Positions 5,290 to 37,436 of a stretch of DNA of 64,000 nt are shown here, one piece after another (position 1 is the stretch's first letter; each line of letters begins with the position of its first letter). The translations under genes and the position numbers were made by a program. A model generated the notes under the pieces. That model searched no databases and was not told the origin of the DNA. It saw nothing but the letters and a program-made list of their open reading frames with translations. This stretch comes from Dietzia lutea (GTDB lineage Bacteria > Actinomycetota > Actinomycetes > Mycobacteriales > Mycobacteriaceae): assembly GCF_003096075.1 (NCBI RefSeq), contig NZ_CP015449.1, positions 682,001-746,000 of the forward strand, read 5' to 3'.

Positions 5290-5739
5290 ATGAACACGGA
5301 GAACCCCACGACCGACCCGGTCGACCGCGCCGAGGCCGCCCGACTGCTCGCCGAGGCGGAGGGCCGCCCGCCGGTGAGCACCGCCCACGACGTCCGGATC
5401 TTCGCCGGCTTCGCCGCCGCGATCGCGGTGCTCATGGGCGTCGGCACCATCGCGATCATGTTCACCAACTGGGCACTGTTGCCGTACGTGGCACTGCTGT
5501 TCGTGGCGATTTACTGGCAGCGGCGCGCGATCAGCGCCAGCCCCCGCGGCTCGGGGCGGACGTACACGTGGGGCATGGCGGGATCGGGCGTGATGATCCT
5601 CGTCGTCGTCACCGCCCTGAACGTCCTCCGCACGACGATCGGCCTCACCGCCTGGTGGTACGCGCTCGGCGTCGTCCTGGTCGCGCTGCCCGGCCTGGTG
5701 GCCGCCGCGATCATCGCCCGGCGAGGTGCGGCGCGATGA
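5290..5739 (+). CDS. small integral membrane protein
   Basis: This 149-residue protein has an acidic N-terminal segment (residues 1-38) and four predicted hydrophobic helices: FAGFAAAIAVLMGVGTIAIM, LLPYVALLFVAIYW, a third around SGVMILVVVTAL, and a fourth around WWYALGVVLVALPGLVAAAI. The start ATG has GAGAAAGG nearby as a ribosome site. The stop overlaps the ATG of the following winged-helix regulator (ATGA), a pairing of membrane protein and MarR/PadR-like repressor seen often in actinobacteria. No enzymatic motif is visible, so I propose no function beyond a membrane component controlled by its partner. Confidence 0.75.
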   Translation: MNTENPTTDPVDRAEAARLLAEAEGRPPVSTAHDVRIFAGFAAAIAVLMGVGTIAIMFTNWALLPYVALLFVAIYWQRRAISASPRGSGRTYTWGMAGSGVMILVVVTALNVLRTTIGLTAWWYALGVVLVALPGLVAAAIIARRGAAR

Positions 5740-16201: not shown

Positions 16202-17737
16202 ATGTATCCAGGAACCTTCGCCGTCATCACCCCGGACAAGCCCGCCGTGATCCGTCCCGCGACGGGTGAGCAGATCACGTACGCCGAGCTCGAGGCCCGC
16301 TCGGCCCAGCTCGCGCACCTCCTGGTCGACGACTGGGGGCTGCGCCCCGGAGAGACGATCGCCGTGGTCTCGGACAACACGCTCGAGATGCTCGAGATCT
16401 ACTGGGCGGCCCTGCGGACCGGCCTGTACATCGCCGCGATCAACCATCACCTGACCCCGGACGAGTCGTCGTACATCATCGGCGACTGCGGTGCCCGCGC
16501 CCTGTTCGTCTCCGCGCCGGTCGCCGACCACGTCGACCTCAGCCCGGAGGCCCACCCGGGCGTCGAGCACCGTGTGGTGTTCGGCGGCGCGCTCGAGGGG
16601 TTCGACGACTACCGGTCGCTGCTCGAGGGCAAGTCGACCGAGCCTCCGGCGGATCAGCCGCGCGGCCACGACTTCCTCTACTCGTCGGGCACCACCGGCC
16701 GGCCCAAGGGCGTCCGCGTGGACCCGCCTGAGGGGCAGATCGACGAGGTGGCCGACCACTACACGCCGGTCTTCAGCTTCCTCTACGGCTTCGACGCCGA
16801 CAGCGTCTACCTGTGCCCGGCGCCGCTGTACCACGCTGCGCCGCTGCGCTTCTGCGGCGTGGTCAACTCCGTCGGCGGAACCGTGGTGCTCATGGACCGC
16901 TTCGACGCGGAGGAGGCGCTGCGACTCATCGAGGCCTACAAGGTGACGCACTCGCAGTGGGTGCCGACGATGTTCGTGCGCATGCTCAAGCTGCCGGATG
17001 AGACCCGCGCGAAGTACGACCTGTCGAGCCTGACCCACGCCATCCACGCCGCCGCGCCGTGCCCGCCCGAGGTCAAGCGCCGCATGATCGAGTGGTGGGG
17101 GCCGGTGATCCACGAGTACTACTCGGCGACCGAGGGCATGGGCATCACGTTCATCAGCTCGCAGGAGGCACTCGAGCGCCCCGGATCGGTGGGGCGTGAC
17201 GGACTCAAGGGCATCGCCCACATCTGCGACGACGAGGGCAACGAGCTGCCGGCCGGCGAGATCGGCACCATCTACTGGCAGAACGACGAGGGCGGCTTCG
17301 CCTATCACGGTGATCCGGAGAAGACGGCGTCCGTGCGCCACCCCGACCATCCCACCTGGGCGACCTTCGGCGACGTCGGATACCTCGACGAGGACCGCTT
17401 CCTGTACCTCACGGACCGCAAGGCGTTCACCATCATCTCCGGTGGCGTGAACATCTACCCGCAGGAGATCGAGAACGCCCTCGTCCTGCATCCGGCCGTC
17501 GAGGACGTCGCCGTGATCGGACTGCCGGATGAGGAGATGGGGGAGCGGGTCCACGCCGTGGTCGTGCCCGCCGCGGACCGCGCTGACGACCCGGGGCTCG
17601 CCCGCGAGATCCTCGACTCCCTGCGGGGGAGGATCTCCGACTTCAAGATCCCCCGCGGTCTCGACCTCGTCGACGAGCTGCCCCGCACGCCCACCGGGAA
17701 GCTGGTCAAGCACCGCATCGTGCAGCAGTACGTCTGA
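16202..17737 (+). CDS. acyl-CoA synthetase / AMP-binding ligase (FadD-like)
   Basis: The 511-residue member of the ANL superfamily activates a carboxylic acid as acyl-adenylate and transfers it to CoA. It shows the P-loop YSSGTTGRPKG, the A5-type EYYSATEGMG, the hinge region YLTDRKAFTIISGGVNIYPQ, and the catalytic lysine in PRTPTGKLVKH near the C-terminus. The closest relatives I recognise are mycobacterial FadD4/FadD12-type ligases. The substrate chain length cannot be read from the sequence. The promoter lies immediately upstream with a Crp-like site, which would tie expression to carbon status (inference). Confidence 0.88.
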   Translation: MYPGTFAVITPDKPAVIRPATGEQITYAELEARSAQLAHLLVDDWGLRPGETIAVVSDNTLEMLEIYWAALRTGLYIAAINHHLTPDESSYIIGDCGARALFVSAPVADHVDLSPEAHPGVEHRVVFGGALEGFDDYRSLLEGKSTEPPADQPRGHDFLYSSGTTGRPKGVRVDPPEGQIDEVADHYTPVFSFLYGFDADSVYLCPAPLYHAAPLRFCGVVNSVGGTVVLMDRFDAEEALRLIEAYKVTHSQWVPTMFVRMLKLPDETRAKYDLSSLTHAIHAAAPCPPEVKRRMIEWWGPVIHEYYSATEGMGITFISSQEALERPGSVGRDGLKGIAHICDDEGNELPAGEIGTIYWQNDEGGFAYHGDPEKTASVRHPDHPTWATFGDVGYLDEDRFLYLTDRKAFTIISGGVNIYPQEIENALVLHPAVEDVAVIGLPDEEMGERVHAVVVPAADRADDPGLAREILDSLRGRISDFKIPRGLDLVDELPRTPTGKLVKHRIVQQYV

Positions 17738-18040
17738 GCCGGCCCCGGCGGCGCCGGTCGACGCTGCCGCCGGGGAGTGTGGCGGAACTCTCGGACGGTG
17801 TGCGGGAACAGATCCGCCGCCTTCGTGGTTCTACTGGGCGGATCGGGATGCGGCAGTGTCCCCCGGGCTCAATCACACAGCCCTCGCGGAGTTCCGTTCG
17901 GCTGGAGCCGCGTTGCGCCCCTCGCCGTGAGGCGACCCCGCGTCCCGGTCCGCCCACTTCGCAGACAGAAGAGAGAAGCCGCCGACCTCCCGGTCGGCGG
18001 CTTCCTGCGTGTTGGAATGTTCCCGCTGGGCTGCTTCCCC
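17738..18040. other. intergenic stretch: low-complexity sequence and two hairpins
   Basis: No convincing gene lies between the ligase stop and the minus-strand mini-protein gene. A short plus-strand frame (17779-18123) runs over both hairpins and has neither a ribosome site nor coding character. The useful content is the terminator hairpins at 17975-18004 and 18023-18052 for the minus-strand genes. Confidence 0.5.
17975..18004 (-). terminator. factor-independent terminator for the mini-protein genes
   Basis: A perfect 13-bp stem (17975-17987 with 17992-18004) closes a 4-base loop. Read on the minus strand it is followed by TCTCTCTTCT, a pyrimidine-rich tail. It lies 37 bp downstream of the 60-aa gene stop. 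Confidence 0.7.
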
Positions 18041-18052
18041 TCAGCCCAGCGG
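18023..18052 (-). terminator. hairpin overlapping the stop codon of the 60-aa gene
   Basis: CCGCTGGGCTG (18023-18033) pairs with CAGCCCAGCGG (18042-18052) around an 8-base loop. The stop codon at 18041-18043 is part of the structure. It stands in tandem with the terminator at 17975-18004 and may protect the short mRNA from 3' decay (inference). Confidence 0.55.
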
Positions 18053-18223
18053 ACCGCCGCCGTCGCCGACGCTGGCGGTCAGGTCGGCCGACGCGCCGAA
18101 TCCAACCGAATCCAGGATCATGAGGAAGAGGGCGGGGAGATTGGTGGCGAAATCTGCGATGGTGGAGCCAGAGTTCAGCCCGAAAGCGGCTGAGCCTTGT
18201 GCGAATTCACTGAGACTGCCCAT
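18041..18223 (-). CDS. 60-aa mini-protein, PorA/PorH-like candidate (paralogue 1)
   Basis: The protein starts MGSLSEFAQGSAAFGLNSGS and continues TIADFATNLPALFLMILDSV, with an acidic, glycine-rich tail GDGGGPLG. It has no signal peptide, no cysteine and no lysine or arginine at all. The middle can form an amphipathic or hydrophobic helix. It is about 54 percent identical over 54 positions (hand count) to the gene next to it. ATG 18223 has AGGAAGGA as a ribosome site; the longer frame to 18295 is not needed. Size, acidity, lack of a signal and tandem arrangement resemble the PorA/PorH channel peptides of the corynebacterial mycomembrane, which can be O-mycoloylated on serine. That is analogy, not homology shown here. 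Confidence 0.7.
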   Translation of the reverse strand: MGSLSEFAQGSAAFGLNSGSTIADFATNLPALFLMILDSVGFGASADLTASVGDGGGPLG

Positions 18224-18263
18224 AACGGAGTCCTTCCTAGAGGAGGAGAAGGAGGGGCTGGCA

Positions 18264-18282
18264 GCCGGACGCCCCGTCCGGC
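18264..18282 (-). other. intercistronic hairpin
   Basis: GCCGGACG (18264-18271) and CGTCCGGC (18275-18282) form a perfect 8-bp stem with a 3-base loop, between the two mini-protein genes and in the leader of the downstream one. It could be a weak terminator, an attenuator or an mRNA processing site. Confidence 0.5.
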
Positions 18283-18296
18283 TTGACGAAACCATT

Positions 18297-18312
18297 TGTG
18301 AGATAACTCACA
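18297..18312. promoter_or_regulatory. perfect Crp/GlxR-type binding site
   Basis: TGTGAGATAACTCACA is a perfect 16-bp match to TGTGA-N6-TCACA and also fits the GlxR form TGTGANNTANNTCACA. It lies 74 bp upstream of the 60-aa gene start and downstream of the 54-aa gene, so it would control the second gene separately. Confidence 0.7.
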
Positions 18313-18374
18313 TAAACCCCCCGCCGAAGATGGTGCTCTTTTTATCTGGTCTAGTCAAGCCCCGGTTCTGCGCG

Positions 18375-18539
18375 TCAGTCGGCGACGCTGGCCACCAGGT
18401 CGACGGCGATTCCGTCGAGCAGTGCGGCGAGGAAGGACAGCGCCAGCGACGGCAGTCTCGTCCCCATGTCGGCGAGAGTGGAGCCCGAGTCGAGTGCGAA
18501 CTCGGCGGATCCGGCGGCGAGGGTGGCGAGACTTCCCAT
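18375..18539 (-). CDS. 54-aa mini-protein, PorA/PorH-like candidate (paralogue 2)
   Basis: This short gene encodes MGSLATLAAGSAEFALDSGS, then TLADMGTRLPSLALSFLAAL and LDGIAVDLVASVAD. It begins with the same MGSL, shares SGST-AD and DL-ASV-D with the 60-aa paralogue, has one arginine and is otherwise acidic. AAAGGA lies 8 bases before ATG 18539. There is no signal sequence, lipobox or cysteine, so secretion would have to be Sec-independent, as assumed for PorA/PorH. It is transcribed first in a tandem with the 60-aa gene 151 bp downstream. Codon choice is strongly GC-biased, like genuine genes here. Function is unproven. Confidence 0.7.
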   Translation of the reverse strand: MGSLATLAAGSAEFALDSGSTLADMGTRLPSLALSFLAALLDGIAVDLVASVAD

Positions 18540-18744
18540 TGTTCGTCCTTTACTGTCGACGGCTCCCCGTCAGGGGGCGGCCGGTCTGTGGTGGGCGGCG
18601 CCGGCGCGATCCGGCTGATGGCACCGGGCGATCGGCGTCGCCTCCGTAGCCGGTTTCATCATCCCCGGAGGTCGCCGACCGGGCCGGCGCTTTGACGGTT
18701 TTTCTTTATGGTGGGAGCGTGCGTGGGGTGAGAGGGGGACGGGC

Positions 18745-19641
18745 GTGGACGTGGTGACGAGCTTCGAGCGCGAGCGGCCCCGACTCGTCCGGATCGCCGG
18801 GCGCCTGCTGGGGGACCATGCGGAGGCCGAGGACATCGTCCAGCAGGCCTGGCTGCGCCTCGCCCGCGCGGACGATGCGACCATCGACTCACTGCCCGCC
18901 TGGCTCACGACCGTCGTCACGCGATTGTGCCTCGACCGGCTCAAGGCGGCGGTGCCGCGGCCGCTCGAACCCGGCAACCCAGAACACCCCGACCGCGCCT
19001 CCATCGACCGCGCCTCCATCGACCGGGCCTCCACCGACCGCGCCTCCGTCGACCCGGACCCCTCCGAGGAGGCGGTGCTCGCGGACTCGATGGGTGCGGC
19101 GCTGCATGTCGTCCTCGACCGCCTCACCCCGTCGGAGCGGGTGGCCTTCGTCCTGCACGACCTGTTCTCGGTCGACTTCGCCACGGTCGCCGACATCCTC
19201 GACTGCCTCCCGGCCACGGCGCGCAAAGTGGCGTCGAGGGCCCGCGCGAAGATCACCGGGGCGGGCGACACCGGCGAGCAGGCGGACTGGCTCGTCGTCG
19301 ACGCCTTCCTCGCCGCAGCCCGACACGGCGAGTTCACCCGCCTCCTCGAGCTCCTCGCGCCGGACGTCGTCGTCACCGGCGACCCTGTCGCCGTGCGCGT
19401 GGGTACCCCGTCGCGCATCGACGGCCGCGACGCCGTGGCGGAGTTCTTCAACGGCGCGGCCGCCGCGGCGCTGCCCGTCTTCGTCCACGACAGACCGGGC
19501 GCGGCGTGGTTCGACCGCGGCGAGGCCCGGGTGGCGTTCGACTTCCTGGTCACCGACGGCCTGGTCCGCCGGATCGCCTTCCGCGCGGACCCCGACGTGC
19601 TCGCCGGGTTGCGCCGGCGTCGGGGCGGCGACCGGAGGTGA
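18745..19641 (+). CDS. ECF sigma factor with SnoaL-like C-terminal domain (SigJ/ECF41-like)
   Basis: The 298-residue protein has sigma region 2 (GDHAEAEDIVQQAWLRLARA, residues about 24-43) and region 4 (LTPSERVAFVLHDLFSVDFA, about 130-150, then the helix-turn-helix). A C-terminal domain from about residue 185, WLVVDAFLAAARHGEFTRLL onward, has the SnoaL/NTF2 fold that ECF41 sigma factors such as mycobacterial SigJ use for self-control instead of an anti-sigma factor. The linker between regions 2 and 4 holds four tandem DRAS-type pentapeptides encoded by a 15-bp repeat. The start is GTG after GAGAGGGGGAC. The usual ECF41 partner oxidoreductase is not adjacent; a DUF1059 gene follows. Confidence 0.88.
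   Translation: MDVVTSFERERPRLVRIAGRLLGDHAEAEDIVQQAWLRLARADDATIDSLPAWLTTVVTRLCLDRLKAAVPRPLEPGNPEHPDRASIDRASIDRASTDRASVDPDPSEEAVLADSMGAALHVVLDRLTPSERVAFVLHDLFSVDFATVADILDCLPATARKVASRARAKITGAGDTGEQADWLVVDAFLAAARHGEFTRLLELLAPDVVVTGDPVAVRVGTPSRIDGRDAVAEFFNGAAAAALPVFVHDRPGAAWFDRGEARVAFDFLVTDGLVRRIAFRADPDVLAGLRRRRGGDRR
18991..19050 (+). repeat. 15-bp tandem repeat, four copies, inside the sigma-factor gene
   Basis: The unit GACCGCGCCTCCATC occurs at 18991, 19006, 19021 and 19036 with at most two substitutions per copy, and encodes (D-R-A-S-I/T/V)4. A 15-bp unit keeps the frame whatever the copy number, so length variation between strains would be tolerated. Confidence 0.9.
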
Positions 19642-37415: not shown

Positions 37416-37436
37416 TGTGATGCTCATCACATACTA
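37416..37436 (-). promoter_or_regulatory. Crp/GlxR-type site overlapping the -10 of the membrane-protein gene
   Basis: TGTGA (37416-37420)-N6-TCACA (37427-37431) is a perfect consensus match. TAGTAT (37436-37431 on the minus strand), a good -10, overlaps its edge, so a bound regulator would block the polymerase. The second perfect site of this type in the window. Confidence 0.65.

Follow-up and report, generated by a model that had tools for sequence, protein, structure and literature searches.

What do two very small, adjacent genes on the minus strand of the Dietzia lutea genome encode, and are they genes at all? The window, by which we mean the whole 64-kb stretch of D. lutea DNA that was analysed (part of a 3.91-Mb genome, here G000), had been singled out by a first-pass annotation for two tandem reading frames of 54 and 60 codons, read as a possible counterpart of the corynebacterial mycomembrane proteins PorA and PorH. 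Both frames are where that annotation had placed them, the 54-aa gene being transcribed first and the 60-aa gene second (Table 1). Aligned without gaps, the two peptides share the same residue at 29 of 54 positions, in keeping with the roughly 54 percent it had given, and they are indeed almost devoid of basic residues and free of cysteine: each has a net charge of -5, with a single Arg in the 54-mer and no Lys or Arg in the 60-mer. The good ribosome sites could be located as two Shine–Dalgarno sequences, and the described lack of a signal peptide agrees with our inspection by eye of both peptides. When both strands of the window were filtered for 38–75-aa ATG ORFs that have a Shine–Dalgarno sequence, at most two Lys plus Arg, a net acidic charge and no Cys, exactly two passed, the 54-mer and the 60-mer; this filter and the serine test described below were designed after the data had been seen, so that their figures are descriptive. 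Neither peptide matched any Pfam or NCBIfam family up to E = 10, a sequence search of the PDB gave a single meaningless match (E = 0.69), and plasmid and phage records held no match to the 54-mer.

Table 1. Features of the locus and its flanks. Positions refer to the window, except in the last row, where they refer to locus L117 (contig G003:C3).
Feature	Position	Strand	Basis or remark
Upstream gene, 54 aa, MGSLATLAAGSAEFALDSGSTLADMGTRLPSLALSFLAALLDGIAVDLVASVAD	18375..18539	minus	ORF list and relatives, dN/dS
Downstream gene, 60 aa, MGSLSEFAQGSAAFGLNSGSTIADFATNLPALFLMILDSVGFGASADLTASVGDGGGPLG	18041..18223	minus	ORF list and relatives, dN/dS
Shine–Dalgarno sequence of the 54-aa gene, AAAGGA	18546..18551	minus	sequence
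Shine–Dalgarno sequence of the 60-aa gene, AGGAAGGA	18231..18238	minus	sequence
Promoter candidate, TTGACT-N17-CACCAT	18330..18358	minus	intercistronic; kept in relatives' alignments
CRP/GlxR-type palindrome, TGTGAGATAACTCACA (+ strand)	18297..18312		perfect TGTGA-N6-TCACA, between the genes
5'-UTR hairpin of the 60-aa gene, 9-bp stem	18263..18283	minus	folding, relatives
Intrinsic terminator, 14-bp stem	17974..18005	minus	behind the pair; terminator scan, folding
SigJ-like sigma factor gene, with SnoaL-like stretch (below Pfam cut-off)	18745..19641	plus	divergent from the pair; domain searches
AMP-binding enzyme gene	16202..17737	plus	convergent with the pair; Pfam
Five tiny ORFs of L117	2709-2852, 2916-3086, 3781-3921, 4625-4783, 5150-5317		ORF scan

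Both ORFs are real genes, as is seen from purifying selection, a kept genome position and conserved regulatory elements. The first-pass annotation had held that spurious frames would lack conservation and show ratios near 1; both frames are conserved in Dietzia, and over 15 pairwise comparisons for each gene dN/dS was 0.09–0.39 for the 54-aa gene and 0–0.43 for the downstream gene. A scan of named records found relatives of the pair at five loci, all of them in Dietzia (sp. E1, D. massiliensis, D. aerolata, D. cinnamea and D. natronolimnaea). Among the 23 Dietzia genomes searched with profiles, the pair's own branch, which we call class I, is clear in seven (G000, G001, G004, G005, G009, G011 and G019); in 19 some match at E <= 1 was obtained, and those outside class I represent other classes or noise. 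Five of the seven class-I genomes contain both genes, G001 has three tandem copies, and in G011 a single copy passed the ORF filter. An alternative 84-aa start for the 60-mer (18295) is disfavoured, since the internal ATG has the Shine–Dalgarno sequence and the alignable MGSL start, and a 228-aa opposite-strand ORF (18009-18695) was rejected as a real gene because it shrinks to 165, 164, 149 and 114 codons in four relatives.

At each of the three loci whose flanks were compared (G000, G019 and G009), the pair has an AMP-binding gene on one side and a sigJ-like gene on the other; in G019 and G009 these neighbours were recognised by their matching ORF sequences, some of them antisense, without a domain search. 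With a divergent SigJ-like gene adjoining them, the peptides might be taken for cytoplasmic or inner-membrane small regulators, or for a hydrophobic type-I-toxin-like pair, tied to that sigma factor. We consider this improbable, as the 13 neighbouring genes scanned at two further loci of the set described below include no sigma factor, and the acidic composition is unlike that of type-I-type toxins.

The expectation of a real, regulated transcript is borne out not only by the conserved ORFs and purifying selection but also by a conserved promoter block and operator, a hairpin and a terminator. The perfect Crp/GlxR site that had been noted is present between the genes, and its core GTGA-N6-TCAC recurs in five of six species, the sixth having GTGG-N6-TCAC. 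A scan of the window for this palindrome, allowing up to one mismatch, gave three matches where 0.54 were expected, and at least three were found in 2 of 100 shuffles. Two of the three matches are perfect; the second perfect CRP/GlxR-type palindrome, TGTGATGCTCATCACA, lies at window positions 37416-37431. The GTGA-N6-TCAC operator would act via a CRP/GlxR-type regulator, and its position downstream of the putative promoter would suggest repression. The second hexamer of this promoter block is CACCAT in the window and CATCAT in five relatives; the candidate is proposed from conservation, since a sigma-70 consensus scan did not detect it.

A hairpin of 7–9 pairs is predicted at the equivalent place in all six sequences, changed in sequence in the relatives (a count without shuffle control), which agrees with the intercistronic hairpin of the first-pass annotation. 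RNAalifold folded 17 pairs, five of them with at least one two-sided change (three in the hairpin, one in the operator palindrome and one in an outer helix), and with so few two-sided changes covariation is modest. Of the seven pairs of the hairpin, six are disrupted or gapped in no more than one of the six sequences, and the remaining one in two. The double terminator that had been described comes down to one strong terminator, whose counterpart was seen in five of five species and carries a compensatory change in the one most distant (again without shuffle control): the second minus-strand match of the scan overlaps it, and a second hairpin, over the stop codon of the 60-mer, is by eye intact only in D. 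lutea.

The earlier interpretation stands where it recognised a real, regulated paralogous pair, but it missed a PF11271 porin-type protein, to which we return below, and a larger set of proteins in Dietzia of which the pair is one branch. This new set consists of tiny proteins, 46–61 aa, acidic, Cys-free and signal-less, encoded at several loci. Profiles for class I/II were run on 401 genomes, for class III with two class IV rows on 301 and for class V on 401, the same 23 Dietzia genomes being included throughout, and ORF scans of 40 stretches, with a filter set post hoc, supplemented these searches. Of the 23 Dietzia genomes, 21 clearly contain one class or more; G022 has a weak relative only (E = 1.5e-4; a 58-aa ORF with a Shine–Dalgarno sequence) and G007 has none, absences that are soft because several genomes are incomplete drafts (64-88%). 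Class II occurs in nine of the 23, with the pattern M(W)GS(L/I)..(F/L)AGS...(S/T)GST.VD.., and class III, the most widespread, in 20 (48–55 aa; typically MFSDFW..LA.GS..L.P..GSAAIDGLL.LPAY.L.TL.GGA.LFGS). Class IV (typically MGSI..FLPGLATGS.AVNTGS..VD) is found in 14 and class V (typically MIE.IF.G.LGFFN.LI.TGSTAAEGF..TGS.AAEGVYGTVTGSLG) in 12, eleven at E <= 4.2e-19 and G001 at 5.9e-7; G013 and G014 were left out of the class V count, their matches reaching only 2.1e-4 and lying inside a 277-aa frame.

By profile comparison, classes I–IV are related. With hhalign, class I/II scored 96% against a profile of class III and two class IV rows (without shuffle control) and 95% against class IV, where none of 60 shuffles did equally well and the reversed profile gave P = 0.0043 versus 2.1e-8. 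Class V we count with the others tentatively, by layout and composition: its comparison with class I/II gave P = 0.056, equalled by 7 of 60 shuffles, and that with class IV was weak (28%), equalled by none of 60 shuffles, but with the reversed profile at 19%. Classes II and III are divergent neighbours, 231–237 bp apart, in all nine genomes with class II, and classes V and IV form a tandem pair in all 11 genomes with strong class V. D. lutea itself has classes I, III, IV and V but no class II, the best match to class II in its genome (E 0.19) being the class I gene. Its class III protein, encoded at L113:4822-4983 (G000:C1:284821-284982), ends in LFGS. Its V and IV genes make up a second tandem pair (L114:4816-4962 and 5320-5460; G000:C1 near 3.32 Mb), again with a GTGA-N6-TCAC site before the second gene and with hairpins before the Shine–Dalgarno sequences (without control); it is immediately flanked by an ArgJ-like gene and a polyketide-cyclase-like one, which makes the envelope context of this pair loose. 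In G003, five different tiny, acidic, signal-less ORFs are crowded into 2.6 kb around the V/IV pair (Table 1).

Among the family genomes searched outside Dietzia, classes I–IV have no convincing short-ORF relative. The class I/II profile matched weakly 10 times in 378 genomes (best E 4.6e-4), each time within an open frame of at least 196 aa, and the class III/IV profile 14 times, also weakly, in 278 genomes (best E 0.0016), a few of these matches lying in short frames; five of the class III/IV match loci (L103, L104, L106, L108 and L110) contain no qualifying small ORF. The outcome of the search for relatives proposed in the first-pass annotation is class I in seven Dietzia genomes and no convincing short-ORF relative of it in the 378 other family genomes. 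Class V reaches further. Its profile matched 46 of 401 genomes, namely 14 Dietzia (including the uncounted G013 and G014), 29 of a genus labelled g22 with genomes of 5.3–9.4 Mb, and three others. When the best-scoring g22 loci were translated, eight of eight (L177-L182, L184 and L185) were found to encode a peptide of 38–39 aa with the pattern MIPVII(D/N)TGSAAL.G(L/I)(L/V/F).TGSAA..G(I/V)(L/I/F).TL(F/W)TGSFG. We take g22 to be Nocardia because of one tblastn match in N. farcinica (NZ_LN868939.1:2363681-2363779, 79% over 33 residues). The peptide is unannotated in that record, but this says little, since only two features are recorded there. Some genomes have genes for such Nocardia-type peptides at several places.

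How far, then, does the parallel with PorA and PorH go? Those proteins, of 45–57 aa in C. glutamicum, are likewise encoded in tandem, acidic and signal-less, with serines in Gly/Ser-rich stretches, and the Dietzia pair shares with them a tiny size (below about 75 aa), acidity, absence of Cys, absence of a signal peptide as judged by eye, and a layout of two small tandem proteins. PorA and PorH are, however, barely alike each other, whereas the Dietzia two are clear paralogues with a promoter block and a CRP-type operator of their own before the second gene. Up to E = 10, neither peptide matches the NCBIfam models for PorH (NF033938 and NF033937) or PorA (NF033925), by which a corynebacterial PorH and its neighbour PorA, our positive control, were recognised over the curated cut-offs. 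The PorA and PorH genes are located between GroEL2 and PPK2, according to the accessible text of PMC5944148; this synteny is absent at the pair's locus, with its AMP-binding and SigJ-like neighbours. We therefore keep apart "works like" and "belongs to": size, charge, signal-lessness, tandem layout and host envelope agree, while model match and synteny fail, so that the parallel first drawn is retained for tiny, acidic, tandem and signal-less proteins and is not supported as family membership, the similarity to PorH being marginal.

This marginal similarity nonetheless bears on a stronger claim of descent, compatible with the explanation that we favour, under which the peptides would be true PorH orthologues diverged beyond recognition. 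We think this unlikely. In hhalign, class I/II aligned with PorH in register at P = 0.0018, a better value than that for PorH against PorA (P = 0.0046, with a reversed control at P = 0.0036); one of 60 column-shuffled controls equalled it, and the reversed profile was low. Moreover, PorH drifts fast. At E <= 0.1 our PorH query found matches in only 21 of the 151 genomes searched within its own genus (best identity 77%), which makes the missing model match weak evidence; that genus, labelled g3, we take to be Corynebacterium because NCBIfam calls the best match PorH and its neighbour PorA. Orthology is nevertheless opposed by the missing model match and synteny, and by the failure to find any short-ORF relative of class I/II in the 378 family genomes beyond Dietzia. 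The alignment is, besides, the best of eight Dietzia–Corynebacterium comparisons (classes I/II, III, IV and V, each with PorH and PorA), several of which were equalled by their shuffled or reversed controls. Class I/II against PorA was at noise level (P = 0.045; 6 of 60 shuffles equal), and the remaining comparisons were equalled by 0 to 27 of 60 shuffles; the reversed profile scored above or near the real one for class IV with PorH and class V with PorA, and closely so for class IV with PorA and class V with PorH. As short acidic helical profiles resemble one another to some extent by composition, homology to PorH or PorA is not established, and the similarity of class I/II to corynebacterial PorH is only suggestive.

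If the pair is a channel, what other channels does Dietzia have? Neither MspA nor PorB was detected in any of the 23 Dietzia genomes. The MspA model (PF09203) matched none of these, nor any of the 14 control genomes of that run; in a second run it matched 44 of 61 family genomes, the four Dietzia included being all negative. PorB (PF11565) was likewise found in none of the 23, with the C. glutamicum control matched. MspA proteins are larger and Sec-exported, and what the pair would share with them is the proposed role of a mycomembrane channel. Mafakheri 2014 reportedly describes the Dietzia channel as a complex of 120 kDa built from subunits of 35 kDa. A pore protein has been purified from D. 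maris (PMC4901239), and in its accessible portion a 2022 paper (PMC9233653), with reference to Mafakheri 2014, counts the channel of Dietzia as a member of the MspA superfamily; this assignment stands against the lack of PF09203 matches in the 23 genomes. The literature covered on Dietzia channel-forming proteins, porins and the mycomembrane, which leaves out most subscription papers, contains no description of these peptides.

A gene of the PF11271 family ("Porin PorA", DUF3068) is present in 17 of the 23 genomes, including all 15 of high quality. Its product in D. lutea has 448 aa, and neither peptide matches the PF11271 model or the Pfam models of MspA and PorB. PF11271 and class IV genes lie about 11–13 kb apart in the 12 genomes that have both on one contig; in D. 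lutea, where the distance is ~12 kb, a gene for the arabinogalactan enzyme AftD is situated between the PF11271 gene and the V/IV pair. With a PF11271 porin-type gene present, the pair is not the sole channel candidate, and the argument from a vacancy for a mini-porin is only partial. Nor is the pair a genus-wide porin, as no class I gene was detected in 16 of the 23 genomes.

These observations lend some weight to the possibility that the peptides are small mycoloylated surface or wall-linker proteins without a pore, like ProtX, with channels formed by PF11271 or other proteins. ProtX of C. glutamicum (cg2875), whose mycoloylated residue is Ser37, is in the accessible text of PMC5310785 a mycoloylated 38-aa protein of unknown function, and PorH and ProtX are reported as wall-linked in that of PMC12632848. 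Likened by these descriptions, ProtX shares with the Dietzia peptides a tiny size, signal-lessness and several serines, and the class III proteins of Dietzia end in FGS. The distribution of PF11271 favours such a role, and the variable copy number of class I, three in G001 and one in G011, fits a surface protein equally well. The available parts of the source do not, though, present ProtX as one of two tandem proteins, and tandem paralogous pairs recall the hetero-oligomeric PorA/PorH rather than ProtX. We regard the pore-less role as a real possibility, but well short of probable.

The conservation of individual residues is informative here. Across 12 class-I proteins, ten positions besides the initiator never vary, S3, S11, F14, S18, G19, S20, D24, T27, P30 and S51, and five of these are serines (hypergeometric P = 0.0015, post hoc). 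The original description of the peptides as Ser/Gly-rich holds. Mycoloylated sites are mostly Ser in flexible Ser/Gly/Ala-rich stretches, with no strict consensus, as far as the available text of PMC11066868 goes, and the corresponding part of PMC11927696 places Ser15 of PorA in a loop between two modelled helices. The amphipathic moments of the two Dietzia peptides are matched by 39 and 67 of 2000 shuffles, a modest signal, and that of PorA by 292 of 2000, so that PorA is not conspicuous either.

Small amphipathic proteins of this kind could also be secreted. The staphylococcal PSM-beta peptides are tandem, acidic and signal-less, at about 44 aa. Surfactant-like peptides of their type, used by Dietzia on hydrocarbons, would fit in size, acidity, tandem duplication and the absence of a visible signal peptide, and growth on alkanes has been studied in the genus (accessible part of PMC12472514). 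The invariant Ser, Gly, Pro and Asp residues do not, however, point to one uninterrupted amphipathic helix, and none of the three flanking genes scanned is an exporter; we give this reading little credence.

The explanation that we favour, with a confidence only somewhat above even, is that the pair encodes small amphipathic helical mycomembrane proteins of Dietzia that work like PorA, PorH and ProtX and are probably O-mycoloylated and perhaps pore-forming. That they are of the small mycomembrane type is the most likely reading; their helices, export, location, mycoloylation, oligomers and pore we infer. Both peptides would be translated without a signal peptide and exported by the route that serves PorA and PorH. 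A Cmt1/MytC-like mycoloyltransferase would then O-mycoloylate a conserved serine, the best candidate sites being Ser18 and Ser20 in the SGS at the centre and, towards the C-terminus, Ser51. The products would assemble in the mycomembrane as hetero-oligomers, plausibly a channel. Two functions are good options here, a pore and that of a mycoloylated protein with a structural or surface role. As a separate promoter block with a CRP/GlxR-type operator serves the second gene, the ratio of the two proteins could shift with cAMP or carbon state.

A bolder extension, which we put forward tentatively and hold to be rather doubtful, is that Dietzia has a multi-locus system of O-mycoloylated mini-proteins (in tandem as class I and V/IV, together with classes II and III) forming hetero-oligomeric pores that are swapped by cAMP-CRP, and that the TGSAA-repeat peptides of Nocardia share the class V core and make this a general device of mycolate bacteria. 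If true, mycoloylated mini-proteins would be such a device and not a corynebacterial oddity. Protein mycoloylation outside Corynebacterium was an open question in 2017, and mytC orthologues were mentioned in Nocardia, Gordonia and Rhodococcus (both in the accessible text of PMC5310785); the peptides provide specific candidate substrates in Dietzia and Nocardia for that question. They also offer an entry into how signal-less proteins reach the mycomembrane, and into the identity of the Dietzia channel, for which the 2022 assignment to MspA, in the portion of that paper available, contrasts with an MspA undetected in 23 genomes.

Which enzyme might carry out the modification? The D. lutea genome has 12 matches to PF00756, and counting such matches does not single out a MytC orthologue. 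Of five of these enzymes compared with the PDB, one is closest to Cmt1 and four to protein PS1, one of the four being nearly tied with Cmt1. The first, encoded at L192:271-1512 (G000:C1:3246270-3247511), has Cmt1 of C. glutamicum as its best solved relative (E = 5e-32), and by this similarity is a candidate protein-mycoloylating enzyme. Two further mycoloyltransferase-like enzymes, encoded at L187:663-1949 and L191:487-2034, have Ser/Gly-rich C-terminal tails.
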